Positions 47,952-63,907 of a stretch of DNA of 64,000 bases are shown in pieces. The position numbers were made by a program, and so were the translations under genes. Origin of the DNA: Gammaproteobacteria bacterium (GTDB lineage Bacteria > Pseudomonadota > Gammaproteobacteria > Pseudomonadales > Azotimanducaceae); the NCBI GenBank assembly GCA_028821515.1, contig JAPPGA010000016.1:1-64000 (forward strand), given 5' to 3'. Positions within the stretch are counted from its first letter, which is position 1. Each line of letters starts with the position of its first letter. The notes beneath the pieces are model-generated. The model made no database searches and had not been told where the DNA came from. It was given only the letters and a program-made list of their open reading frames with translations.

Positions 47952-48027
47952 ATTGCCCCGTTTGCCGGGTATGGATTCGCGGGGCGCTTCAGACATAATG
48001 CGCGGCTGCTCTCGGCCCCGATGCCCC

Positions 48028-49854
48028 ATGGAAATCCGCAACGTCGCCATCATCGCCCATGTCGACCACGGCAAGACCACGCTGGTGGACTGCCTACTGC
48101 GGCAAACGGCGAGCACTTCGTCGCGCGTCGAGATCGCCGAGCGCGCGCTGGACAGCAACGAACTGGAACGCGAGCGCGGCATTACGATCCTCTCAAAGAC
48201 GACATCCGTGGAACACGCCGGATGCCGCATCAATATCGTCGATACGCCGGGGCATACGGATTTCGGCGGCGAGGTGGAGCGGATCATGTCGATGGTTGAC
48301 TCGGTCCTGCTGGTCGTCGATGCGGTGGAGGGGCCGATGCCGCAGACCCGTTTCGTCACCAGCAAGGCGTTCGCGGCGGGTCTCGACCCCATACTGGTGG
48401 TGAACAAGATCGACCGTGACAGCGCGGCGCCGCATCGGGTCGTCGACGAAGTCTTCGACCTGTTCGACCGGCTTGGAGCCAGCGAGTCGCAGCTCGACTT
48501 TCCTGTGGCGTTCACGTCGGCCACGCGAGGTATCGCCGGCCTCGATCCCGAACGGATGGCGGACGACATGATTCCGCTTCTCGACCTCGTGGTGGAGTGC
48601 GCGCGCCCGCCGAAGACCGATGCCGAAGGGCCGCTGCAAATGCAGGTCAGCACGCTGGATTACTCGACCTATGTGGGGGTCATCGGCATCGGGCGCGTGA
48701 TGCGGGGTACTGTCACACCGCGGATGCCGGTGGCGGTGGTGAACGCGGACGGGGTCGCCCGCCGCGCCAGGGTGCTGTCGGTGCACGCGAACCGGGGCCT
48801 CACGCGGATCGAGCTGCCATCGGCCTCGGCCGGTGACATCGTCTGCATTACCGGTATCGACGACATCGGGGTGTCCGACACCGTCTGCGACGTCAATGCC
48901 ATCGATCCACTCCCGCCGCTGGCCGTGGATGAACCAACGCTGACCATGATGTTCCGGGTCAATACGAGCCCGTTCGCCGGGCGCGAAGGCAGGTTCCTGA
49001 CCAGCCGCCAGATCCGGGACCGGCTGCTGCGGGAGGCTTCGCACAACGTTGCGCTGCGTGTCGAGGAGACCGACGATCCGGACCAGTTCAAGGTTTCTGG
49101 CCGCGGCGAGCTTCATCTCTCGGTGTTGCTCGAGACGATGCGCCGGGAGGGGTACGAATGCGCCGTCTCGCGGCCGACGGTCATCATGCGCGTCGTCGAC
49201 GGGGAGCGCCTCGAGCCGTTCGAGACCGTGGCCTTCGACATCGAAGCGGATCACCAGGGGCGGCTGATGGAAGCACTGGGTGAGCGCAAGGGCCAACTGG
49301 TCGACCTGCAGCACGACGGCGCGGGCCGCGTCCGGCTTGTCAGCAAACTGGCGACGAGAGCGCTGCTGGGCTTTCGCGCGGTATTCACGTCGCTCACGTC
49401 GGGTACGGGCATCATGAGCTTTTCCTCGGCCGGCTATGGTCCCGCGGTTCCCGGGCTCGAGACCGGACGCCAGGCCGGCGTCCTGATATCCAAGGAGACC
49501 GGCAGGGCCGTCGGCTATGCGCTCTTCAACCTGCAGGCGCGCGGGCGCCTGCTGGTGCGTCCCGGAGATGAGCTGTACGAAGGCATGGTGGTGGGTGTCC
49601 ACCAGCGTTCAAATGACCTGACGGTCAATCCGCTGCGGGAGAAGAAACTCACCAATATCCGGGCGGCGGGAAGCGACGAGAACATCCTGCTGGCCGCGCC
49701 GATGGAACTGTCGCTGGAACAGGCCCTCGAGTTCATCGACGACGACGAACTCGTCGAGGTCACCCCGGCATCGATCCGCATTCGCAAACGGCACTTGCGG
49801 GAGAGCGCCCGCCGCCGGGCGGGAGCGGAGGTCCTGGCTGCTCGCGGGCAGTAG
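48028..49854 (+). CDS. typA: Translational GTPase TypA/BipA
   Basis: [61 protein letters not shown]. Confidence 0.97.
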
Positions 49855-49871
49855 GTGACGGCAAGCCCGGG

Positions 49872-50648
49872 TCACACGTCCACGAGGGTCCAGCGCACGC
49901 CGCAGACGTCTACCCGGTCATCCGCCACGTAGCAGTTGCGCCGTTTTGCCGCGGCGAGAATCCTGTCCCGATCCCGTACCGCGAGATCGATGGCGCCTAG
50001 GCCCGGCCCACGCCCATCCGTCGCCTCCACGAAGCGCAGGGTGACGTTGTTGAGCGCGATACTCAGCGCGGCGCCGTCACGGGTCACGGGCAGATCGGTG
50101 ACATGGCCCCAGAGCTCCGCTATCGCGATCGGATCCGGACCCTGCAGTTCTACGGCGAGGTAGTCCACCGTCACGTCCTGGGCAACCTTGTCCTCCCATC
50201 CCGTGCCCCCGGCGGGCATCCAGTTGCCGTTGAAGTCGTCGTGCCGGTCCCAGTCGATCTCCAGGAACGACGCGATCATGTCGCGCGGATGCAGCTGGCA
50301 GATGTTCCAGTTCTCCCGCTGCGACTCCATGGCGATGCGCACGCCGCGGTCGAGCGCGCGCTGGCGCGCTGCCAGCTGTGTCGCCTTGTCGGCGCCCTGG
50401 GTGATCACCATATAACCGCCGTCGCCACCCCGCCGGTCAAGGTATCGTCCGCCGGCGGTACTGTCTTCGACAGGCGCCACCACCTCGAGGAAGTTGCGTC
50501 CGATCGGCATGAGCGTGTTCTCGAGGCCCCATTGGCCCACCCCGGGATCGACGAAGCACGACCTGATGCCGAAAACGTGGGTGAGACTGTCTATCGCCGG
50601 CGCGAGTTCGCGGGCGATCAGGCAGATCTGGCGCAGTTGGATGATCAT
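49872..50648 (-). CDS. VOC/glyoxalase-like domain protein
   Basis: LRQICLIARELAPAIDSLTHVFGI...GLENTLMPIGRNFLEVVAPV. Confidence 0.88.
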   Translation of the reverse strand: MIIQLRQICLIARELAPAIDSLTHVFGIRSCFVDPGVGQWGLENTLMPIGRNFLEVVAPVEDSTAGGRYLDRRGGDGGYMVITQGADKATQLAARQRALDRGVRIAMESQRENWNICQLHPRDMIASFLEIDWDRHDDFNGNWMPAGGTGWEDKVAQDVTVDYLAVELQGPDPIAIAELWGHVTDLPVTRDGAALSIALNNVTLRFVEATDGRGPGLGAIDLAVRDRDRILAAAKRRNCYVADDRVDVCGVRWTLVDV

Positions 50649-50670
50649 CGTCCCTCCCGGGTGGCGGATG

Positions 50671-51891
50671 CTATGCGTTGCGGGCGTTGCCCATCTGATT
50701 CATGTATCCCGGTGGCCGTCCCCTGTCCCAGACGTGGGCGCGGGCGACGTCTTCGTTCAGGTCGGCTCCCCAGCCCGGGCGGTCGGGGATCAGCACGTCA
50801 CCGTGATCGAATTCCATTTTCTCGGTGATGAGGTCGTCCTTCCACGGCACGTCGTCGATGTCGATTTCGCAGATGCGAACGTTTGGAATCACGGCGCAGA
50901 GATGCACGGAGTGCAGGGTCGAGAGATGGCTGTAGTAGTTGTGCGGCGCACAGTTGACCTCGAACGTCTCCGCCATGTCTGCGACCTTTTTCGCCGGGCC
51001 GAAACCGTTCCAGGGAAGGTCGATCATGCACACGTCCATGGAGCGGGCCTCGAAGTAGCGCCGGTAGTCGCGCGGACCGAACAGGTTCTCGCCGGAGCAG
51101 ACCGTTACGCTGGTCGCATCGCGGATTTCCCGCAACCCATCGGGTTCATACATGTCTATCTCGACCCACATCATGCGCAGGTCTTCAAGCGCCCTGCAGA
51201 TGCGTGTCGCCGCTTCCACGCGGAAGTTGAAATTCAGGTCGAGCGCGATATCGATGTTCGGCCCGACCGCATCCCTGAATGTTCCGATCAGTGTGCGGAT
51301 GTGGTCTATCGTAGCGTTGTCTATGGTGCCGTCGGTAGTGCCCTGGCCGCCGCCGAAGCCGCCAAAGTAGACTCTCGCCGGGTCACCGGGATAGACGATG
51401 TTCGTCTTCAGTGCCGTAAACCCGCGGTCGGCCACTTCCCTTCCCAACGCACTGATGTCGTCCCAGGTCCGAAGCGGCGGTACGCCGATAATGTCGGCAT
51501 TGCGCGCGCGGGACGTTCCGCAGTGTGACCAATAGACGCGCTGGCGTCGCCGGATGGGTCCCCCGAACAGTTCGTACACGGGTACGCCGAGCGCCTTCGC
51601 CTTGATGTCCCACAAGGCGAGTTCGATGCCCGCGATGGCCTTCGCGGCGATACCGCCCGGACTTTGCCGCGACATGCGATACAGGTCCCAGTAACGCGCC
51701 TCCACCGGACGCGGATCCTCACCCAGGAGCATCTTCTCGAATTCCTGGGCAGCCGCTGCGACGCTGTAGGGCATCCGCCCGTCGGAGCACTCGCCGTAGC
51801 CGGTGACATCGGCGTCGGTGCGCACGGCGACAAACGTCCACGGGCGCCACCCCGCGTCGACGACGAAGGTATCGATCCCGGTGATTTTCAT
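50671..51891 (-). CDS. Mandelate racemase/enolase superfamily protein
   Basis: GIELALWDIKAKALGVPVYELFGGPIR; GFTALKTNIVYPG; CSGENLFGPRDYRRYFE; CAPHNYYSHLS. Confidence 0.93.
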   Translation of the reverse strand: MKITGIDTFVVDAGWRPWTFVAVRTDADVTGYGECSDGRMPYSVAAAAQEFEKMLLGEDPRPVEARYWDLYRMSRQSPGGIAAKAIAGIELALWDIKAKALGVPVYELFGGPIRRRQRVYWSHCGTSRARNADIIGVPPLRTWDDISALGREVADRGFTALKTNIVYPGDPARVYFGGFGGGQGTTDGTIDNATIDHIRTLIGTFRDAVGPNIDIALDLNFNFRVEAATRICRALEDLRMMWVEIDMYEPDGLREIRDATSVTVCSGENLFGPRDYRRYFEARSMDVCMIDLPWNGFGPAKKVADMAETFEVNCAPHNYYSHLSTLHSVHLCAVIPNVRICEIDIDDVPWKDDLITEKMEFDHGDVLIPDRPGWGADLNEDVARAHVWDRGRPPGYMNQMGNARNA

Positions 51892-51987
51892 GGATTGCTT
51901 CCCTCCACCCGTGGTCCGGGCGCCAACGCGAACGTCGAAGATGATCTATCCGCGCGCGGGGGCAGGCAAGCAAAACGGACTAGCAGG

Positions 51988-53003: not shown

Positions 53004-53729
53004 ATGGTATCGTCACCATGTTCTGTTATTCTTGCGCTCCCGTACTTTCTCGGGCTATTCGAGGTGCTTGGGGCAAGGAGGTCATCTATCACGGGGACAT
53101 GCACGTTCACGGCAGGTCGCACCTGGCGCGGGGTTGCCTGGCTCGTGGCGCTGCTCCTGCTGCCCGTGCCGGGGAGCGAGAGCGTCCGCGCCGAGGAGGT
53201 GGACGAATCGGCGCTGCCGGAGTTGCCTGCCAAGATCAGGGCGCAACTGGAAGCGAACCAGTTACGGCGTGAAATCGAACTTGAACAACTGCGCCGGGAA
53301 CTGGAGGACCTGAAGGGATTCGACGATGCTGACGTGGCGCGGAAGATCGAGCGGTTGGGCGAGTTGCGAAGACTATTGGAAGTTGACCGTGATGTTCGCG
53401 AACTGCTTGAGAATTCGCCCGAAATGGCGGAAGAATACGAACGCATCGTCCAGGCGACCGCGCTGAGCCCACCCGAAACTCCGCGGGGCTTCTGCGCCTG
53501 TCTCGAGAGTGCCCGGGTACATTGGCTCGGCCAGGGCGACCAGGCGGGTCAGGTCACCGTCTTCCTTGACGGCGCGTACTACGACGTGCGTGCCGGTGAA
53601 ACGATCGGGAGCAGCCGTTGCAGCGTGGGGCAGACCCTTTCCGGAAGCGTTGTCCTGCAGTGCGGCACGCAGAGAGCGATTCGGGGACTCTACAGCCCCG
53701 TCGAAAGGACCCCGCACACCTCGCAATGA
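53004..53729 (+). CDS. PilP-like type IV pilus accessory protein (start uncertain)
   Basis: TM/signal WLVALLLLPVPGSESVRA, coiled coil, C-terminal TVFLDGAYYDVRAGETIGSSRCSVG; directly upstream of the pilus ATPase (ATGA overlap). Confidence 0.65.
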   Translation: MVSSPCSVILALPYFLGLFEVLGARRSSITGTCTFTAGRTWRGVAWLVALLLLPVPGSESVRAEEVDESALPELPAKIRAQLEANQLRREIELEQLRRELEDLKGFDDADVARKIERLGELRRLLEVDRDVRELLENSPEMAEEYERIVQATALSPPETPRGFCACLESARVHWLGQGDQAGQVTVFLDGAYYDVRAGETIGSSRCSVGQTLSGSVVLQCGTQRAIRGLYSPVERTPHTSQ

Positions 53730-55456
53730 GCGACATCGCGGAGAATCAACGCCGATCCCTGGACATCTTGCCCGGACGGGAGGATGGCGCGGCACCCGTG
53801 ACAGGTGAAACGAGCGCTGCCGGCGAGACGGACCACATGGTCGACGAGTCCGTCGTGGAGCTGGAGGTGGATCGCATCCAGCGGCTCGCCGCGACCTGGG
53901 GCGTGACGCCGATCCTTGTGCGCGAGGACCTGGTTACTCAGCAGCCGGCCATGTCCCTGCAGGCCTGGTTGCGGGACAGCGCGGACGGAAAGCTCTGCAT
54001 CATGGAGGACGGCTCCATCATCACTGCCGATCCCGACGCTCCCCAGGTGGAAGCTGCCAGGGCGCTGATGGGACTGAAACGGATTCCCTTCCAGGTGCGG
54101 CCCGCCATGTCCGAGGTGGTGCGGGCCGCTCTCAGGCGGCTCGACGAAGACGAGATCGGCGACGATATGTTGATCGAGGACGACCGCACGGAAACGGACG
54201 TGTCGCGGTTGTTCCTGTCGATCCTCGACGCTGCCGTCAACCGCGAAGCGTCCGACATCCACTTTGAGATGCGTGGTAGCGAAGCCAGCATACGTTTTCG
54301 CGTCAACGGCCAGATGATCGAATACGACCGTATCTCGGCGCGAGAGACTATCGCGATCGGCAACTACCTTTTCAACGCCGAGGCGAAGCGCGGCGCGCTC
54401 CAGTTCAATACCTACATGCCGCTCAACGCCTCGGCGCAGTTCCCGGTGCGCGGTCAGACGGTCGCGACCCGCTTCGCCACCGCGCCGGATATCCGGGGCG
54501 TCGACATCTTCGTGCGGATCTGGCGCCCGGATGCGGAAGCCTGGCCCCTGGAGGACCTCGGGTATACGCGGTTGCAGCGCGACCTGTTGCGCGAGGCATT
54601 CGGCCGGCCGTACGGCGTTATCGTCTTCTCCGGGCCGACCGGTTCTGGCAAGAGCACTTCCATGAGCGCCGTTCTGGAGACGCTTCCGGAGTCACTCAAG
54701 GTCGTTTCCCTGGAAGAACCCGTGGAACGGGAACTGCCGAACGTGACGCACATCGCCATCTCCGACATCACCGATCACGGCGGCTGGGAGAACCTGCGGG
54801 GAGGGTTGAACCGTTGGGACTCCAACATAAACGTGCTCGGCGAGATCAAGGACAGGGAGACTGCGGACTCCATCAAAGACCTGGTGACGGCGGGCAAGCT
54901 GACCATCACGACGCTGCACGCCTCGAACGTCCTGACGGTGCCATCGCGCATGGAGGACCTGGGCGTCGATCATTCACTGCTGTGCGATCCCAACTTCCTT
55001 GTCCTGCTGATCAACCAGCGCCTTGTCCCGGAACTGTGCCGAGCTTGCAAGACGCCGTTCACCGAGGCGGAACACGTGGACCGGGATTCGCGCCATCGCT
55101 TTTCCCGCCTGTTCGCGGAGGAGATGGAGCGTGTTTTCGTGCGTGGTTCCGGATGCGCCGAGTGCAGCAACTCCGGCATAGTCGGTCGTCTTCTCGCGGC
55201 AGAGATGGTGATGATCGACGAGACGTCGCTCGACTTCATCCGCAACCGCGATCCGCTTCGCTGGCGCCAGCACCTTTCCGCTCATGGCTGGCGACCCATT
55301 ACCGACCACATGCTCAGGCACGTACGCGCCGGACGCGTTGACCCGGTGGACGCTGAACGCGCGGCGGGCCGGCTGGACGCGACGCAAACGCCTGTCTTCG
55401 ACTACCGCGAGCGTGCAGAGCTTGTCGATGACGAAGCGGAAGAGGCGGACGCATGA
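53726..55456 (+). CDS. Type II/IV secretion-type assembly ATPase (PilQ of R64-like / GspE-PilB family)
   Basis: Walker A FSGPTGSGKSTSM; NINVLGEIKDRETADSI; CRAC...CAEC zinc motif; ASDIHFE. Confidence 0.93.
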   Translation: MSDIAENQRRSLDILPGREDGAAPVTGETSAAGETDHMVDESVVELEVDRIQRLAATWGVTPILVREDLVTQQPAMSLQAWLRDSADGKLCIMEDGSIITADPDAPQVEAARALMGLKRIPFQVRPAMSEVVRAALRRLDEDEIGDDMLIEDDRTETDVSRLFLSILDAAVNREASDIHFEMRGSEASIRFRVNGQMIEYDRISARETIAIGNYLFNAEAKRGALQFNTYMPLNASAQFPVRGQTVATRFATAPDIRGVDIFVRIWRPDAEAWPLEDLGYTRLQRDLLREAFGRPYGVIVFSGPTGSGKSTSMSAVLETLPESLKVVSLEEPVERELPNVTHIAISDITDHGGWENLRGGLNRWDSNINVLGEIKDRETADSIKDLVTAGKLTITTLHASNVLTVPSRMEDLGVDHSLLCDPNFLVLLINQRLVPELCRACKTPFTEAEHVDRDSRHRFSRLFAEEMERVFVRGSGCAECSNSGIVGRLLAAEMVMIDETSLDFIRNRDPLRWRQHLSAHGWRPITDHMLRHVRAGRVDPVDAERAAGRLDATQTPVFDYRERAELVDDEAEEADA

Positions 55457-56511
55457 AGGAGGCTCTTGCCAGGATCGACGAGGGCTTCCTGCTGCTCCAG
55501 TTTGGCGCATCGCTGCCCAAGCAGTTGGCGTTTCTGGAAGGGATATTCGCACTGATGTCCGACGGCGTCCCGCCGCGCGACGCGTTGCGGCTGACCGCGA
55601 CCGCCGCGGCGCCGCTTGACCGCCATGTCGCGCGACATATGCTGCGAAGGTTGCGCGAGGGGCGGGCCGTGTCGAGTTCCATGGACAGGCTGTTTCGTTT
55701 CGACGTCGTGAGCGCGATCACCGCAGCCGAACAGACGGAGAACTTTACCGAGAACGGGGCGACCGTTCTGCGCCACATCCGGGGCCAGCACGAGGCGCGC
55801 TCGGGAGTGCTTCGGCAACTCGTGATGCCCGGCGTGTACATCGTTCTCGCGTGCGCGGTGTACGCCGTCTTCGCGATTCAGGTGTGGCCAAAGTTCGCCG
55901 TGGAGCTCACGCCGGATCAGTGGCCCGCGCCGGCCAGGGCCACCTATGGGACGGGACGCTTCATCTCGGACTTCTGGTGGGCGATGGCAGCGGCGGCAGC
56001 GACTGCATTCGTCGGAATCCGCCTCCTGCTGAGGCGCTGGACTGGCCGGGGCCGACGATTGCTGGACCGGGTCTGGCCGTTTACCCTGTATCGTGTGCTT
56101 CTCGCCGCCAATGCCATCGAGTCCGTAGGGACGCTGCTGGTGGCGGGTCATGATATCCGCACGGCGCTCGCGACAGTGTCGCGGCATGCGTCGCCGTATA
56201 CGCGGATGTACTTCGACATGATGCGCCGCCGGCTGCGTGACGGCCGTAACGTATCGCGGGCCCTGGATGTGGGGTTTCTCCATCGCCGGGACGTGTACCG
56301 CCTGAATCTCCTGGCCGAGCACCAGAACCTGAGGCAGGTCATGGTGAGAACGGGCGCCGCCGCCCGGGAAGGCGTTCTGGCAAATTTCAGGGTTACGGCG
56401 GGGGTGCTCAACACGGTGGGACTGACGGCCGTCGCGGCGTCCTTCGCATTATTGATTCTGTCGGTTTACATGGTCGTGACGATTCTCGTGCGCAATTTGC
56501 AGATCGGTTGA
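55453..56511 (+). CDS. Type II/IV secretion inner-membrane platform protein (PilR/GspF-like)
   Basis: LLQFGASLPKQLAFLEGIFALMSDGVPPRDAL; three large TM segments; follows ATPase with ATGA overlap. Confidence 0.9.
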   Translation: MKEALARIDEGFLLLQFGASLPKQLAFLEGIFALMSDGVPPRDALRLTATAAAPLDRHVARHMLRRLREGRAVSSSMDRLFRFDVVSAITAAEQTENFTENGATVLRHIRGQHEARSGVLRQLVMPGVYIVLACAVYAVFAIQVWPKFAVELTPDQWPAPARATYGTGRFISDFWWAMAAAAATAFVGIRLLLRRWTGRGRRLLDRVWPFTLYRVLLAANAIESVGTLLVAGHDIRTALATVSRHASPYTRMYFDMMRRRLRDGRNVSRALDVGFLHRRDVYRLNLLAEHQNLRQVMVRTGAAAREGVLANFRVTAGVLNTVGLTAVAASFALLILSVYMVVTILVRNLQIG

Positions 56512-56512
56512 C

Positions 56513-57157
56513 ATGCTCTTGCGGGCCATGACAACCAACAACAAGATGGGAGGTACCAATCCAATGATTCTCAACAGCGTTCAGACCGAGCCTGGGGCGC
56601 GGCGATTTGCTCATCGGAACAGGGGAGTGACCCTGATCGAGCTTGCCTTCGTGATCGGCATCATCGCCGTGATCCTGGTCTCGGTGATGGGCGTATACAA
56701 CATCGTCCAGCGCAACCAGACGCTCTCGGATGTCACGACCGACGTGGCCGTGATTCGCCAGGCGGTGTCCACATGGGCGCGAGGCGGGCCGATCACGTAC
56801 TCTGCGGCGGACATCAATCGAGGCTTCACCAGCCTGACGGGTTGGGACCAGCTCGCTGGATTCCTGCCCGGAAGCCTGGGTGACGAGGCGCGTGAAGTCG
56901 GGGACGAAACTGTCCTTACTGCGGCGAACTCGTGGGAATGCACGTACGAGTTGGAATTCTACGAAACCGACCGGTACAGGTGGTCTCTCAGGATCGACAA
57001 GCTTCCCACCGATGTGTTGAATGCGCTCGCCAACAGCTTGCGGGAGGGGGTCGTGGCGGATCAGGGCGAAGGCGACACCCTCCAGAGGGGACTTGAAATA
57101 ACCGAAGGAACCGCAGGCGAAAACGACAGCGCGTTGAAGCTGACCTATCGCCATTGA
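56513..57157 (+). CDS. Type IV prepilin (probable major pilin, PilS-like)
   Basis: Class III signal NRG|VTLIELAFVIGIIAVILVSVMG. Confidence 0.85.
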   Translation: MLLRAMTTNNKMGGTNPMILNSVQTEPGARRFAHRNRGVTLIELAFVIGIIAVILVSVMGVYNIVQRNQTLSDVTTDVAVIRQAVSTWARGGPITYSAADINRGFTSLTGWDQLAGFLPGSLGDEAREVGDETVLTAANSWECTYELEFYETDRYRWSLRIDKLPTDVLNALANSLREGVVADQGEGDTLQRGLEITEGTAGENDSALKLTYRH

Positions 57158-57190
57158 GGGATCACGGGCCAGCAATACTGCGACGGTGTC

Positions 57191-58006
57191 GTGCCAAATT
57201 CGCGCAGTAAGGGCGCCACTTTGCTGGAACTCGCCCTGGTTCTGGTCGTCGGCGCCGGCGTGATTTCGGGTGTCGTGTTCCTTGGGCAGGGCTGGCGCCA
57301 GAACCTCGCAACTGCTGGCGAGGCGAGCGCGGTACCAGTCCACGTGGCCACGCTGCGCAACGCGGTCGAAAACTGGTACAGGTGGGAGTATTGTCATGTC
57401 GACCCGGATAGTCCCGATGCGGTGCAGGCGCCACACTTCCCCATCGGCAGCGGGTCTACTGACCTCGCGCCTTATCTGCCGCCCGTCCCGCGCTTGCCGG
57501 ATCCCCTGGCGGGGGGCGAATACGATTGGGAGATCGTGCGCTCGGCACAGACCTACAGCGGGACACCACCGCCGCAGTTGCGCGTGTTCTGGAATCCGCC
57601 GGAGCGCTTCGACGAGCGGATCTCGCTGATCGCCCGAGACCTTGAGGCCGCCTGCGACAGCGACGGCGATGCCGGCACGTACGAGCCCTGCGGTAGCCAG
57701 CCGCGTGCGCGGCTCTTCTGGGTGGAGCTGTTGGCAGTGCGATCGGAGGAACGTTCATACGACGATCTGCGCGGGCAAGCCTGGCTTGGCCGAAATGGCA
57801 TTGAGTGCCGAGATGGCGTCCACCTACGGTTGAACGCTTTTTGCGACAGCGACGGAAACGGGCGACTGGGACCCAACGTCGATCAGGACGGTGACGGGAT
57901 GGACGACACCTGGCGACTGGATGCGGACGGCGACGGCAAACTGGACTTTGACTTGACGGACGACCTGCTGGTCGACGTCTCCGACTTTCGGTTACTGGGA
58001 TGCTGA
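57191..58006 (+). CDS. Type IV prepilin-like protein with C-terminal Ca-binding (EF-hand/dockerin-like) loops
   Basis: SKG|ATLLELALVLVVGAG; DSDGNGRLGPNVDQDGDGMDDTWRLDADGDGKLDFD. Confidence 0.8.
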   Translation: MPNSRSKGATLLELALVLVVGAGVISGVVFLGQGWRQNLATAGEASAVPVHVATLRNAVENWYRWEYCHVDPDSPDAVQAPHFPIGSGSTDLAPYLPPVPRLPDPLAGGEYDWEIVRSAQTYSGTPPPQLRVFWNPPERFDERISLIARDLEAACDSDGDAGTYEPCGSQPRARLFWVELLAVRSEERSYDDLRGQAWLGRNGIECRDGVHLRLNAFCDSDGNGRLGPNVDQDGDGMDDTWRLDADGDGKLDFDLTDDLLVDVSDFRLLGC

Positions 58007-59091
58007 GGTACACAATGGGTAGTGGAGTAACGACGAGTAGAGCCCGGCTCCGCGAACATCGGGCGGCCGGCTTCACCCTGGTCGAGATCGGCATCGTCGT
58101 GGCGCTGCTTGGATTCATCGCGGTACTCGTGGCGGATTTCTATGCGAACCAACTGAGCCTCAGACACTCCATTCAGCGTGTCGAGGGCACGGTGCGTGAC
58201 GCGCGGTCGATCATCGACGCGTCCGTTGCCTGGGCCGAGGTGAACGGGTACGAATGGCCGAACGACAGGGCGATACCCCAACCTGCGATCAGCCTGGAGA
58301 AGCTGGTCGAGGAGGGTTACCTGATCCATGTTCCCGGCATCCGGTACGAGGGGTGCGAGGGAGGCTGTCGAGGTTTTGCCATCACGGGATGGGACCGGGC
58401 GGCGGCGCGGGCATCGGTGCCGGCAACCCCCTGCATGGGGCCCCCAGACCACACGCAGTCTACGGCGTCCGGCAACTACGACGCGAACCCGGCCGCCGAC
58501 GACCTCGTCCTGTGTTTCGATGTCCGAGGCAGTAGCGATGCGCGTGCCATCGCCTCGCGCCTGCCGCAGGGCCGGCTCTTTCAGACCGCCGGGCAGATCG
58601 GGACGGATGCTTACCAGGTTGAAGCCCGGATCCTCGGCGTGGCCGCTTTTGCCGGTGGCGGTCCGGGCGGGTCCGATCCGTTCGTCCGCCGCATCGATGA
58701 AGGCCGTCCGGTGATATTCGCCGATACCGGCGGCGAACTGCAGAACATGAAACGGCTCTCCTCGATCGCCCTCGATCCATCGCAGAGGTTCGAGGATCCG
58801 TTGCCACGTGAAGCATCGGGTGTTCGTTTCCTGAACGACGGCAGTTTGATCGATCCGGCGGATGATGGGATTACGGCCGGTCTGCTCATCGATGGTAGGC
58901 TCTTCATGGGAGGGGCGAGCGAAACCGACATCTACTTCTCCCGGCGTGACCCAGTGAACGCCATATATCCGTTGCGCGGCCTGGCGAGGCGTGTCTGCCG
59001 GTTGGAGGCTGCCAACAACCTGCGACCCATAGGCGGCACCGGCGCCCGAATTGGTTTGGATGGATCATGCGACAGATTGAACAGACTATAG
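58000..59091 (+). CDS. Large prepilin-like minor pilin (PilV-like position)
   Basis: AAG|FTLVEIGIVVALLGFIAVLVADFY; about 360 aa; within pilus operon. Confidence 0.8.
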   Translation: MLRYTMGSGVTTSRARLREHRAAGFTLVEIGIVVALLGFIAVLVADFYANQLSLRHSIQRVEGTVRDARSIIDASVAWAEVNGYEWPNDRAIPQPAISLEKLVEEGYLIHVPGIRYEGCEGGCRGFAITGWDRAAARASVPATPCMGPPDHTQSTASGNYDANPAADDLVLCFDVRGSSDARAIASRLPQGRLFQTAGQIGTDAYQVEARILGVAAFAGGGPGGSDPFVRRIDEGRPVIFADTGGELQNMKRLSSIALDPSQRFEDPLPREASGVRFLNDGSLIDPADDGITAGLLIDGRLFMGGASETDIYFSRRDPVNAIYPLRGLARRVCRLEAANNLRPIGGTGARIGLDGSCDRLNRL

Positions 59092-60689
59092 CCCGGCCGA
59101 TCTATCTGGATGCGCTCGGGAAGTTTGGAGCCCTTGGCACTGCCGTCGTCCTGCTCGCCGCCTGTGCGGTCCTGTCGCCACGTACCGATCCCCGCATTCC
59201 AGAGGCGCAGACCGTTGCGGAAAGGGACATTGAGGCGAGTTACGTCACGCCGTCGCGTCCGCTGGTCCTCCTGCATGATGATCCCTACGTCGACTCCGAC
59301 CGCGTCGCGTACGCGGGTTCGGCGTGGCTGCACGAAGCTGTGGAGATCAGGGTTTCGGGGCTGCCGTTCGACCTCTGTCTCGCAAAGGCCATCGAGCAAC
59401 TGGAGGACGCCCCGTCGGTAGTTTTCGCCCATGATGTCGCCCAGCGCGATTTGCCGGTGACGCTGGACCATGAGGGAGTCTTTCGGGATTTTCTCAACCT
59501 GCTCGCCGAAGCGAGTGGCCTGGGTTGGGAAGAGAAGTCGGGCGCTCTGCACTGGATGGCGGAAGTCGCGCGCACGTTTGAGATTCACCGTGTGCCCGGT
59601 GACCTGTCCTGGTCCATGTCCACGGTCGAATCGGATCGCTCCGCGACCGTGCAGGCTGGCGGGGGCGGGGGTGGAGGGTCATCGGGCGGCGTCCGGGCAA
59701 CGCCCCAGACTGGCAGCGAGATCACTCTCAACAGCAATGCGAGTTTCTGGCAAGGCCTGGAGGAGACGCTGATCCGTCTGCTGGGTGCTGAAAACCCGGC
59801 GCCGATTATCGATCGAAGTACCGGCACCGTTGTCGTCCGGGGTCCCGCCGGCCGCGTGCGCGAGGCGGGAGGTTACATCGGTGCGATGAATCACTGGCTT
59901 GCCCGTCAGGTCCTGCTCGAAATACAGCTGGTCACGGTCACGTTGTCGGACAGCCAGAGCACCGGGATCGACTGGCAGCTGGTCTACCAGGCGGTAACCG
60001 ACCAAGGAAGCCCAGAGAGGCCGGGGTCGGTGGAGCCCGCTGGCCGTAGCGGTTTCGCGGACGCGCTGGCGCGGGCTTCTGGCATGGACGCGGCTTCCGT
60101 CGGTATCGAGTTGGGCGATGGTCATGCGTTCCATGGCACGGAGGTGGTTCTTCGCGCGCTGGCGGCCCAGGGGGAGACGAGTTTGCGAAACTCGCCGAGG
60201 GTCGTCGCGTTGAACGGTCAGGCTGCGCACATGCAGGTGCTAAACGACAGGGGCATCCTGGCCGGGGTGGACGTCACCACGCGGGAAACGGTCGCGGTCG
60301 TGACGGAAGTGGATCTGCAGCCCGGCGTCGTCTCGACAGGCATGTCGCTCACGATCGTGCCGAAGATCGTCGGTGACAGGGTCTTCCTGCATGCTGCCAT
60401 CTCGGTGAGCGACCTCGTCAGCTTGGAGTCGGCGGGGAGCGGCGACCAGTCCATTCAACTCCCGACGGTGGAACGCAGCCAATTCTTTCAGAGCGCCCGG
60501 CTGCGCAGCGGTGAAACGCTGGCCCTCGGCGGGCTGTTGGCACGCCGCGGGGCCACGGACTCTCGAGGCATCGTTCGATGGCCATGGCTGACCGCCAAAA
60601 GCAGCGAATACAGCAGCACAGAGACCGTGCTGCTCATTACCCCCACACTACTGGACCGACCTGCGCCCGACGAAGACTTGCTGTTGTGA
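59067..60689 (+). CDS. Secretin lipoprotein (PilN-like, type IVb pilus)
   Basis: Lipobox VVLLAAC; C-terminal secretin domain (VALNGQAAHMQVLNDRG...SLTIVPKIVGDRVFLHAAIS...LPTVERSQFFQSARLRSGETLALGGLLARR). Confidence 0.9.
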   Translation: MRQIEQTIARPIYLDALGKFGALGTAVVLLAACAVLSPRTDPRIPEAQTVAERDIEASYVTPSRPLVLLHDDPYVDSDRVAYAGSAWLHEAVEIRVSGLPFDLCLAKAIEQLEDAPSVVFAHDVAQRDLPVTLDHEGVFRDFLNLLAEASGLGWEEKSGALHWMAEVARTFEIHRVPGDLSWSMSTVESDRSATVQAGGGGGGGSSGGVRATPQTGSEITLNSNASFWQGLEETLIRLLGAENPAPIIDRSTGTVVVRGPAGRVREAGGYIGAMNHWLARQVLLEIQLVTVTLSDSQSTGIDWQLVYQAVTDQGSPERPGSVEPAGRSGFADALARASGMDAASVGIELGDGHAFHGTEVVLRALAAQGETSLRNSPRVVALNGQAAHMQVLNDRGILAGVDVTTRETVAVVTEVDLQPGVVSTGMSLTIVPKIVGDRVFLHAAISVSDLVSLESAGSGDQSIQLPTVERSQFFQSARLRSGETLALGGLLARRGATDSRGIVRWPWLTAKSSEYSSTETVLLITPTLLDRPAPDEDLLL

Positions 60690-62110
60690 GTCTCGTGATT
60701 GGAAGGGAGAGTTTCGCGCTTCCCGTCGTGCGGGAAACTGCGCAACTCAGCATCGGAATCGAGTCCCTGCGTTCGTCCTCCGCCACCATTGCAGCAACGG
60801 CTAGGCGGCGCGCACGTCTGATGCAGTCGGTATTCGAAGATGACGACCTTTTCGCGTGGTTCGAACCCGCCGGCAACGGGTCCCTGTACTGCGCGTTCGC
60901 GACGGAGCCCGGGTATCTGCTCGGCGAGAACGTCAGGAATTGGCTGCGGGAAGAAGTACACGCGCGCGACTTCGTGTACTGCGAAAGGATGGGCAACGAG
61001 CGGGCCGTCGTCCTGGTGATCGACGGACACGTCATCAAAGATGCCCTTGTGAGCGGATATGAACTGAATGTCGAACTGCGCCATGCTCTCACCCGACTGG
61101 ATGCAGTTGCTCCTGGCGTCTATACCGTGTTTTTTCACGGCATCGAGGTTCAGGACCTGGAACTGCCAGACCGTTCCCGCGCGGTACCTCTTGAAGACTC
61201 CGTGCTCGACTGGATGGAGGACGCGCCGGAGCCGCTCCCGGAACTCAGTCCCACCAACCGGGCGATCCGTGCCATAGATGTGGTCGCCAAGCGCCTTCGA
61301 CAACTCCGGATAGTGCGCACTGTCAGTTTGTCAGTGGGATCCCTGGTGGTAGCGGCTGCCGGGGTCTACTGGTGGCAGAATCGCGTACCGCCACCGCCGC
61401 CCGAGGACGCACCACCTCCGCCGCTCCCGATCGAACAGCTGAATGCGGAGTACAGCGATCTGTTGGGTACGCCAGACCCCGGCGAACTCATCCCGGCTAT
61501 GCATCGCGCCTATCGGCTGTTTCTGAGCGATACCCTGTTTGGCGAGTTGCTGTCCGTCAGGAAGCTGCAATGGACCCGGACCGATGGCGATCGACTCACC
61601 ATCGAGACATCCTTGCCGCCGGAAGTCCTGGGAGGACCCCGCTCCGGGCCTCGGGACGCCCTGTTGGACCAGATGCGCCGCCGCGCGGGGGTGCAAGGAT
61701 GGCGCATCGTATTTTCGGGTCTGGACGCGACCTTCTCGCTGCCTGTCGACGCCTCGAACCGGGTCGACGAACTGCGCCTGCCGCAACCTTTGGCCGAAGG
61801 CAATCCCTGGCACCGGAAACGGTTGGGCGGGGAGCTCGAGGCGCTCGGCACCGTGACGGTCAGTCCCGGGCCGCTGAACCAGGTCTACCGGGGCTTTTCG
61901 ACGCTGTTGGAATTGCAGGGCGTCGAATGGTCCACGGGAGGTACGGCGGCATGGCTTGGTGACCGGCTTGCGGGCGGTCCCCTCGTATTGGAGTCAGTGG
62001 AGTTCGAATCCGGGCGAGGCGCTGCCATGGATGGTCGAATCCAGTTCACCACGCTGTGGTGCGTGACCGAGAATGCTTCGGCACGCCGTTGCTTGCACGA
62101 GAGCGCGTAG
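60686..62110 (+). CDS. PilO-like type IVb pilus accessory protein (R64 PilO type)
   Basis: GTGA overlap with secretin; single TM (TVSLSVGSLVVAAAGVYWW), proline linker, periplasmic domain; position. Confidence 0.65.
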   Translation: MSLVIGRESFALPVVRETAQLSIGIESLRSSSATIAATARRRARLMQSVFEDDDLFAWFEPAGNGSLYCAFATEPGYLLGENVRNWLREEVHARDFVYCERMGNERAVVLVIDGHVIKDALVSGYELNVELRHALTRLDAVAPGVYTVFFHGIEVQDLELPDRSRAVPLEDSVLDWMEDAPEPLPELSPTNRAIRAIDVVAKRLRQLRIVRTVSLSVGSLVVAAAGVYWWQNRVPPPPPEDAPPPPLPIEQLNAEYSDLLGTPDPGELIPAMHRAYRLFLSDTLFGELLSVRKLQWTRTDGDRLTIETSLPPEVLGGPRSGPRDALLDQMRRRAGVQGWRIVFSGLDATFSLPVDASNRVDELRLPQPLAEGNPWHRKRLGGELEALGTVTVSPGPLNQVYRGFSTLLELQGVEWSTGGTAAWLGDRLAGGPLVLESVEFESGRGAAMDGRIQFTTLWCVTENASARRCLHESA

Positions 62111-62182
62111 CCCTTCGATCCGAGGGACAGCGCTGGCTGACTTGCGGCGGCAGGGCGACGAAGACGGCCCTGAGGACTCGAA

Positions 62183-62728
62183 TCAGCGCGACAGGTCGGC
62201 TGCTTCCGTGTTGACGGTTACCGGTAGGGATATGGACCCATCGGAATCGTCGGGCGCCGGACCTTCGTAAGCCACTGTCATCGGGGTTTCGGTGCCGGCA
62301 TCAACGAGATTGGATTCGACAGGTGCGGGTTCGCCCACTGCTGATTGCCGGGCGTCTTGGTTGCCCACGGAGCCGGGGAGTTCGACATCGACGCGTGGCG
62401 GCGGTGTATTGACCACTACTACGCGGTTGCCGCGGTAGAGGTCGGCGACGAACTGACCCCTGTACATCGCAAGAAGTGATTCGAGCGCGCCTTCAAGCGA
62501 GTCGTTTGAAATGGTGAATGCATGGGAAACCATCCGGTCTTCGCCGGCGCTCCAGACCAGGGACCATCCGTGGGAGTCCACGAGTTCCCGCACGCTCGCT
62601 GACAGGTAGCCCTCGCGAACCTCGAAATCGACCGATTCGGCGGAGGCGGCCGATGCCGCCATGACAAGTGCCAATGCGGCGACGGCGCGTGCGGTCGGCG
62701 GGCGTGACCGGGAAAGCGGGAGAGGCAT
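62183..62728 (-). CDS. TcpQ/PilL C-terminal domain-like protein
   Basis: Signal peptide; REGYLSASVRELVDSHGWSLVWSAGEDRMVSHAFTISNDSLEGALESLLAMYRGQFVADLYRGNRVVVV. Confidence 0.7.
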   Translation of the reverse strand: MPLPLSRSRPPTARAVAALALVMAASAASAESVDFEVREGYLSASVRELVDSHGWSLVWSAGEDRMVSHAFTISNDSLEGALESLLAMYRGQFVADLYRGNRVVVVNTPPPRVDVELPGSVGNQDARQSAVGEPAPVESNLVDAGTETPMTVAYEGPAPDDSDGSISLPVTVNTEAADLSR

Positions 62729-62837
62729 CAGGCATGGCTCCGGTAAGGGACGACGTAACTCTAGCAGATGGGGAGAGATGCCGTTGCGGACGAACGCAGT
62801 CGTCACGTGTGGCTTGCGGTCTGGTCTCCTGTCGTCG

Positions 62838-62984: not shown

Positions 62985-63323
62985 TCACTCGGAGTCGTCC
63001 GAAGCCGTTAGCTGGTTGTATATCCCCATACCGACGGATGCCGCCGCGCCTGACAGGAGCGCGATCACCAAGGCGTCGAGTATGCCGTCCAGATATCCAC
63101 CGATGTATTGGACATTGTCCAGAACATCGCCATTCCCGGCCATAGCGGCCGCGACGGCGGCTACGAGGGCCGCAGTCGGATGCCCGTCATCGTTCATCAC
63201 GGCCGCCACGATTCCGAGGACGACCAGTGCTAACGGCAGGATGCCCGCTGGCATTTGGTCTCCGGCTAACCCTTGGACGAGTGCCGCAAGGACGATCAGG
63301 CCAAGCACTATCTTATTTGGCAT
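62985..63323 (-). CDS. Small hydrophobic membrane protein of unknown function (112 aa)
   Basis: Several hydrophobic segments; purine-rich GGGGAGG upstream of ATG and a strong downstream terminator. Confidence 0.7.
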   Translation of the reverse strand: MPNKIVLGLIVLAALVQGLAGDQMPAGILPLALVVLGIVAAVMNDDGHPTAALVAAVAAAMAGNGDVLDNVQYIGGYLDGILDALVIALLSGAAASVGMGIYNQLTASDDSE

Positions 63324-63514: not shown

Positions 63515-63907
63515 CTACCCGTCCTTGTCCAACGCCGCCACCGCCCGGAACCAGCGGTGTGCCTGCGGGAGGCAAAGGAGCGCCAGCGCGCTGGCCTGCA
63601 GCACCCTGCAAAGGACTTCCCACGGGGCAAGTTCTGCGATCGCTTCCAGGGGCGACACCGCGTTCGCGAAGCCCCAGAGCGTCACGAGCAGGATGGCGAC
63701 GATGGCGTACCGGACCCAGCCGGCGCCCCTGAACGTCACGTAGGCGAGCACCGTCCACAGCATGATGAAGAAGACCTGGCCACCGTTGCTGACGACCTGT
63801 TCGGGCCAGGCAATCCAGACCACGAGCAGGACTACGGCCGATGCGAACAGCGCCCCCGCTGCTATTGAAATTACCCTCGGACGGGCGGGTAGCCTGACTT
63901 CAGTCAC
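63515..63907 (-). CDS. Predicted 4-TM membrane protein (130 aa)
   Basis: Four hydrophobic segments; no recognised family. Confidence 0.6.
   Translation of the reverse strand: MTEVRLPARPRVISIAAGALFASAVVLLVVWIAWPEQVVSNGGQVFFIMLWTVLAYVTFRGAGWVRYAIVAILLVTLWGFANAVSPLEAIAELAPWEVLCRVLQASALALLCLPQAHRWFRAVAALDKDG

Follow-up and report, generated by a model that had tools for sequence, protein, structure and literature searches.

A chromosomal type IVb pilus locus with a rotated gene order in one family of uncultured Gammaproteobacteria

Introduction

Which class of machine is encoded by nine closely packed genes on a gammaproteobacterial chromosome, and how does it relate to the thin pilus of R64-like plasmids? 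Few type IVb pili (T4bP) have been studied experimentally, most of them from plasmids and gut pathogens. PMC6668835 included no more than five validated systems. The DNA analyzed here, called the window throughout, comprises bases 1-64000 (64,000 nucleotides) of a contig 73 kb long; the assembly (genome G000) totals 4.04 Mb. An earlier note on this DNA had read the genes as a type IVb rather than type IVa pilus locus with the parts of the R64 and Tcp-Bfp systems, and as perhaps a divergent, domesticated one; we address both readings here, along with the alternatives of a secretion machine and of a decaying remnant.

Results

Nine ORFs occupy positions 53004-62728 (Table 1), of which eight form one tight plus-strand operon (53004-62110), while the ninth, the TcpQ gene, is convergent and reads on the minus strand from an ATG at 62728. 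ATGA overlaps join the PilP gene to the ATPase gene and the ATPase gene to the platform gene; a 1-nt gap precedes prepilin 1 and a 33-nt gap separates it from prepilin 2, after which overlaps of 7 nt (prepilins 2 and 3) and 25 nt (prepilin 3 and secretin) and a GTGA overlap (secretin and PilO) follow. The gene order, the strands and the tight coupling described in the earlier note were thus all found, each ORF in its place, and the extent it gave also stands; its longer ORF start for PilO does not, as the start is most likely the GTG at 60686 that overlaps the secretin stop, and its PilP start is doubtful. The ATG at 53004 is possible for PilP, yet homology to the sister genome begins at about 53052, and there is an AAGGAGG at 53075. 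Between 53075 and 53090 this AAGGAGG stands 6 nt ahead of an in-frame ATC, and none of ATG, GTG and TTG occurs in frame at this distance, so that a non-canonical or an earlier start is possible. Because nine genes recur with the same order and orientations in relatives at only ~28-59% protein identity, the arrangement is more than a chance one.

Table 1. Genes of the pilus locus, with positions in the window and the basis of each assignment
Product	Position	Strand	Basis
PilP-like periplasmic linker	53004..53729	+	Foldseek on AlphaFold C-terminal domain; start 53004-53100
Pilus assembly ATPase (R64 PilQ / BfpD equivalent)	53726..55456	+	PF00437 2.4e-59
Inner-membrane platform protein (PilR/PilC/GspF-like)	55453..56511	+	PF00482 9.6e-19; tree
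Prepilin 1, probable major pilin (cleavage G/VTLIE)	56513..57157	+	Profile matches
Prepilin-like 2, probable minor pilin (G/ATLLE)	57191..58006	+	Profile match; motif counts
Prepilin 3, probable minor/tip pilin (G/FTLVE)	58000..59091	+	Profile match
Secretin lipoprotein, PilN/BfpB type	59067..60689	+	TIGR02520; PDB BfpB; tree
PilO (T4bP PilO2-like), inner-membrane alignment protein	60686..62110	+	hhalign via intermediates
TcpQ-domain protein, predicted secretin partner	62183..62728	-	PF10671 8.6e-7

To the left lies a minus-strand gene named from its sequence as an EamA-type transporter; to the right of TcpQ are two small genes with no assigned family, and then the nuo (complex I) operon beyond the window end. 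These two genes, located between TcpQ and nuoA (62985-63323 and 63515-63907), encode small membrane-like proteins without a family match, and both are kept in the sister genomes whether the pilus is present or absent.

The secretin, a predicted lipoprotein with the lipobox LLAAC, matched the Pfam families Secretin and Secretin_N_2, and among NCBIfam models it scored best against TIGR02520 (PilN; 4.5e-52, at 177 bits, under the equivalog cut-off of 287.65), ahead of MshL (2.3e-31), GspD and PilQ, whereas the MshL-type secretins of the relatives rank MshL above PilN. Among PDB structures, a profile built from three sequences reached 1e-37 against BfpB but no better than 1e-4 against GspD. The ATPase and the platform protein belong to the Pfam families T2SSE and T2SSF, respectively, and the former also matches BfpD. 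The TcpQ protein scored 29.4 bits against PF10671, whose cut-off is 27, and the best PDB match of its profile, a weak one (9u5s_R; E=0.02), is a lipoprotein chain from the entry that also contains BfpB.

Assigning the two linker proteins took longer routes. PilO had no library match, but hhalign placed it with the PilO of other chromosomal T4bP loci (P=98.5 over 392 columns), which in turn matched the PilO2 of R64-type plasmids (P=96.2); direct profile comparison with R64 PilO2 failed, and the link to it runs via these intermediates only. PilP, which had no Pfam or NCBIfam match, combines a signal or transmembrane segment, a coiled coil and a C-terminal beta domain, the latter modeled by AlphaFold at pLDDT 75-85 within a moderately confident model (mean pLDDT 61). 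The top seven Foldseek hits (best E 8.5e-3; probability 0.96-1.00) were all PilP, either as structures or within models that include it, from Neisseria, Pseudomonas and Myxococcus, with the GspC HR domain lower. Profile comparison was weak, and a direct profile match to R64 PilP failed; the protein is thus a predicted PilP, identified by fold only. Its gene adjoins the ATPase gene, as in R64. The family assignments of the earlier note consequently hold for TcpQ by Pfam, for PilO by profile, for PilP by fold, and for the secretin by TIGR02520.

Prepilin 1 resembled the T4b major pilins (profile P=98.1 over residues 35-181) and R64-like PilS (P=93.8). It has a leader of ~21-38 residues, valine at +1 and, because it carries one cysteine only, no disulfide of the kind found in classical T4b major pilins. 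Over its N-terminal 99 residues, prepilin 2 matched the second pilin of other chromosomal T4bP loci (P=94.9). It contains six conserved cysteines, and its C-terminal region is rich in Asp, with three DxD[GN]xG loops in the window protein, a number reached by none of 5000 shuffles. Related Asp-rich loops are conserved across four lineages, and they are possibly calcium-binding sites; the AlphaFold model of this protein was uninformative (pLDDT 32). The N-terminal part of prepilin 3 matched the third pilin of other chromosomal loci (P=94.0), and this protein would be exposed at the fiber tip.

The ATPases of this group of loci carry SLEEPVE, NRWDSNINVLGEIKD and AGKL..TT.HA where the other T4bP ATPases that we compared have EDP, usually DPD, GE[IM]RD or SEVRD, and TGH. 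The Asp box has thus changed from EDP to EEP, the His box from TGH to AGK, and DPD...GE-R-D to DSN...GEIKD, and these altered motifs are conserved in the relatives, while the P-loop, the catalytic Glu and the zinc-type cysteines are retained.

Trees were built for the secretin, ATPase and platform proteins, with R64, environmental plasmids and E. coli K-12 as references and with TCP and BFP left out because pathogen virulence elements carry them. In all three, the window forms a 100/100 clade with its relatives G003 and L067. The secretin tree separates all T4bP, the window included, from MshL, GspD and RcpA at 100/99, and the ATPase tree leaves the window out of a 98/99 clade made up of GspE, PilB, HofB and MshE. 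Together these two trees rule out membership in the MSHA, type II secretion (T2SS), type IVa pilus and Tad classes, and bear out the earlier placement as type IVb. R64-like plasmid systems form a clade of their own for secretin (100/99), ATPase (99/99 for most of them) and platform, with the window outside in each case; and since no locus protein matched PilV or Shufflon_N, the R64-like thin pilus sub-group was rejected as well. The deep branch order within the T4bP, including that of the window ATPase, is not fixed by these trees, whose platform backbone is weak and in which the Vogesella and Aeromonas rows sit loosely on long branches. We conclude that the nine genes are a genuine type IVb pilus locus, whose component identities are established computationally.

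No peptidase, PilT or shufflon lies in the locus, just as had been noted, and the same genome encodes a PilT-family ATPase elsewhere. The prepilin peptidase, which the earlier note suggested seeking to the right of the window, is not there, and neither is PilT, as the contig continues into the nuo genes; contig C2 carries a PilD that adjoins pilB and pilC. PMC6668835 treats the prepilin peptidase as a loner gene in its T4bP model. Besides the locus, contigs C2, C13, C23, C49 and C78 of G000 carry pilBCD, a Tad-type ATPase, a T2SS gene cluster and the PilT-family ATPase, and also an MshE-like ATPase with a c-di-GMP-binding domain.

Scanning the contigs of genomes with the single secretin protein, an approach that reaches close relatives only, returned two, both gammaproteobacterial MAGs: JAPOYI010000130.1 (G003, 85-91% identical) and VYDB01000123.1 (L067, 55%). 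A profile search raised the count to 5 of 201 same-family genomes, in 3 of 37 genera, the two additional ones belonging to genus g322. At the set threshold, a sample of 392 genomes of the order gave no match beyond the window's own genome, and a 399-genome sample of the phylum nothing comparably strong beyond it; viral contigs held no relatives, and among the matches listed from 72,556 plasmids none exceeded 32% identity. The distribution is therefore patchy within one family of uncultured gammaproteobacteria. The bins of the relatives may, we presume, be of sponge origin.

All five genomes have the order PilP, ATPase, platform, pilins 1 to 3, PilN and PilO, with a convergent TcpQ, so that the neighborhood comparison proposed earlier finds the nine-gene order across three genera. 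The neighbors of the L067 locus differ from those in the window and G003, which makes at least two chromosomal neighborhoods overall. One copy, L110 from a MAG, shows an interrupted ATPase frame as well as gaps in the assembly. The complete genome of a sister species, G005, lacks the whole pilus block: its region 314001-325000 of contig C1 (L100) aligns with the window contig over the flanks 47971-51982 and 62830-68296, and the ~200 bp in between hold the last 22 codons of EamA followed by a terminator-like hairpin near window position 62830. Most simply, the block and most of EamA were lost there as a unit by one deletion; because this sister species does without the block, the pilus is dispensable.

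Comparison of the window genome with G003, its nearest relative, gave dN/dS of 0.08-0.38 for all plus-strand genes and showed no stops, a pattern of substitutions that indicates purifying selection; the value for TcpQ (~1.0 on few changes) is uninformative. DNA identity between the two exceeds 90% over most of the block, and is 95-98% ahead of prepilin 3, but drops in two places: to 74-83% over 58500-59500, in the C-terminal half of pilin 3 and the N-terminus of the secretin, and to 79-82% over 61000-61500, in PilO. Synonymous divergence likewise rises from 0.07-0.09 upstream to ~0.3 in pilin 3 and secretin, and this mosaic fits an import of divergent alleles.

Discussion

Our results make it very probable that a complete type IVb pilus machine is encoded here, belonging to a lineage that, within our sampling, is confined to one gammaproteobacterial family. 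By homology with known systems, prepilin 1 would be the main filament subunit, and prepilins 2 and 3 minor subunits that start and cap the fiber. A shared PilD would cut the prepilin leaders, after which the ATPase would power the platform protein so that pilins are pushed into the fiber, with PilO and PilP linking the inner membrane to the secretin, the putative outer-membrane opening, whose assembly the TcpQ protein would aid. The PilT-family ATPase encoded elsewhere may help retraction. Such a predicted extracellular filament would most likely serve attachment, adhesion or aggregation.

The same parts could instead form a secretion-type machine, in which a short periplasmic pseudopilus exports proteins. 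Pilins are few, the locus has no dedicated retraction ATPase, and TCP, itself a T4bP, also exports a protein. This reading is nonetheless unlikely, as the secretin is of the PilN/BfpB and not the GspD type, prepilin 1 is akin to the T4b major pilins, and a T2SS is encoded by a separate gene cluster of this genome. Far less credible is a recent domestication of an R64-like plasmid thin pilus that was once an aid to conjugation. The core parts are indeed the same as in R64, and the locus is chromosomal and patchily distributed, but the secretin and most ATPase clades of the plasmids exclude the window, and there is no PilV or shufflon in the locus. Furthermore, because gene order is conserved across three genera whose secretins go down to ~54% identity, the locus is not a recent capture. 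The earlier wording holds, therefore, as regards a divergent lineage and a type IVb system, while a domestication is not supported and the locus is not specifically R64-like. A decaying remnant, to which the absence of the block from G005 and the damaged L110 copy might point, is the least probable of all, as the window genome, G003 and L067 have kept every gene intact and dN/dS is low for the plus-strand genes.

A complete and conserved chromosomal lineage of this type IVb pilus in uncultured bacteria broadens the T4bP family. Its ATPase is a case of natural variation in motor motifs that are nearly fixed elsewhere, and the locus illustrates that gene order can rotate with the machine kept intact. 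Writing the genes by their R64 letters, we obtain P-Q-R-S-S-S-N-O followed by an inverted TcpQ for the window, TcpQ-N-O-P-Q-R-S plus extra genes for R64 and the plasmid loci, and Q-R-S...-TcpQ-N-O-P for other chromosomal gammaproteobacterial loci. TcpQ aside, all the orders compared are rotations of one circular order. The departure from R64 that had been noticed before, with secretin and PilO after the pilins, is hence such a rotation with TcpQ flipped, and a single block move could produce it, a pattern to test rather than a mechanism proven by order. A bolder proposal, which we put forward tentatively and consider rather unlikely, is that this is a deep, separate T4bP lineage of one family, that its conserved motor-motif departures and calcium-binding minor pilin make assembly or dynamics differ from those of known type IV pili, and that T4bP loci in general are rotations of one circular order.

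Compared with known systems, the MSHA pilus shares a secondary secretin match (MshL), while the MshL and MshE of the relatives sit in other clades. The Bfp pilus of EPEC provides the best PDB match of the secretin, the entry holding that of TcpQ, and a match to the ATPase; it is distant in sequence, and a peptidase and a retraction ATPase belong to the Bfp system itself. Chromosomal T4bP loci L060, L063 and L064 share the run from ATPase through platform, pilins and secretin to PilO, with pilins 1-3 and PilO related by profile; they differ in having PilP after PilO and TcpQ ahead of the secretin on the same strand, and in falling in separate clades. In a different T4bP-like locus, L062 (contig C88 of G218), TcpQ, PilN and PilO are accompanied by very large prepilin-like proteins (665 and 698 aa). 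With the IncI1 R64 thin pilus (pilL-V), finally, the window has in common the TcpQ domain (in PilL), PilN, PilO, PilP, PilQ, PilR and prepilins, as well as the adjacent runs P-Q-R-S and N-O; it differs in its separate tree branch and in having no PilV or shufflon, PilM, transglycosylase or peptidase of its own. The machine is thus a known one, a type IVb pilus, and what is new is a separate branch of it with a rotated gene order.
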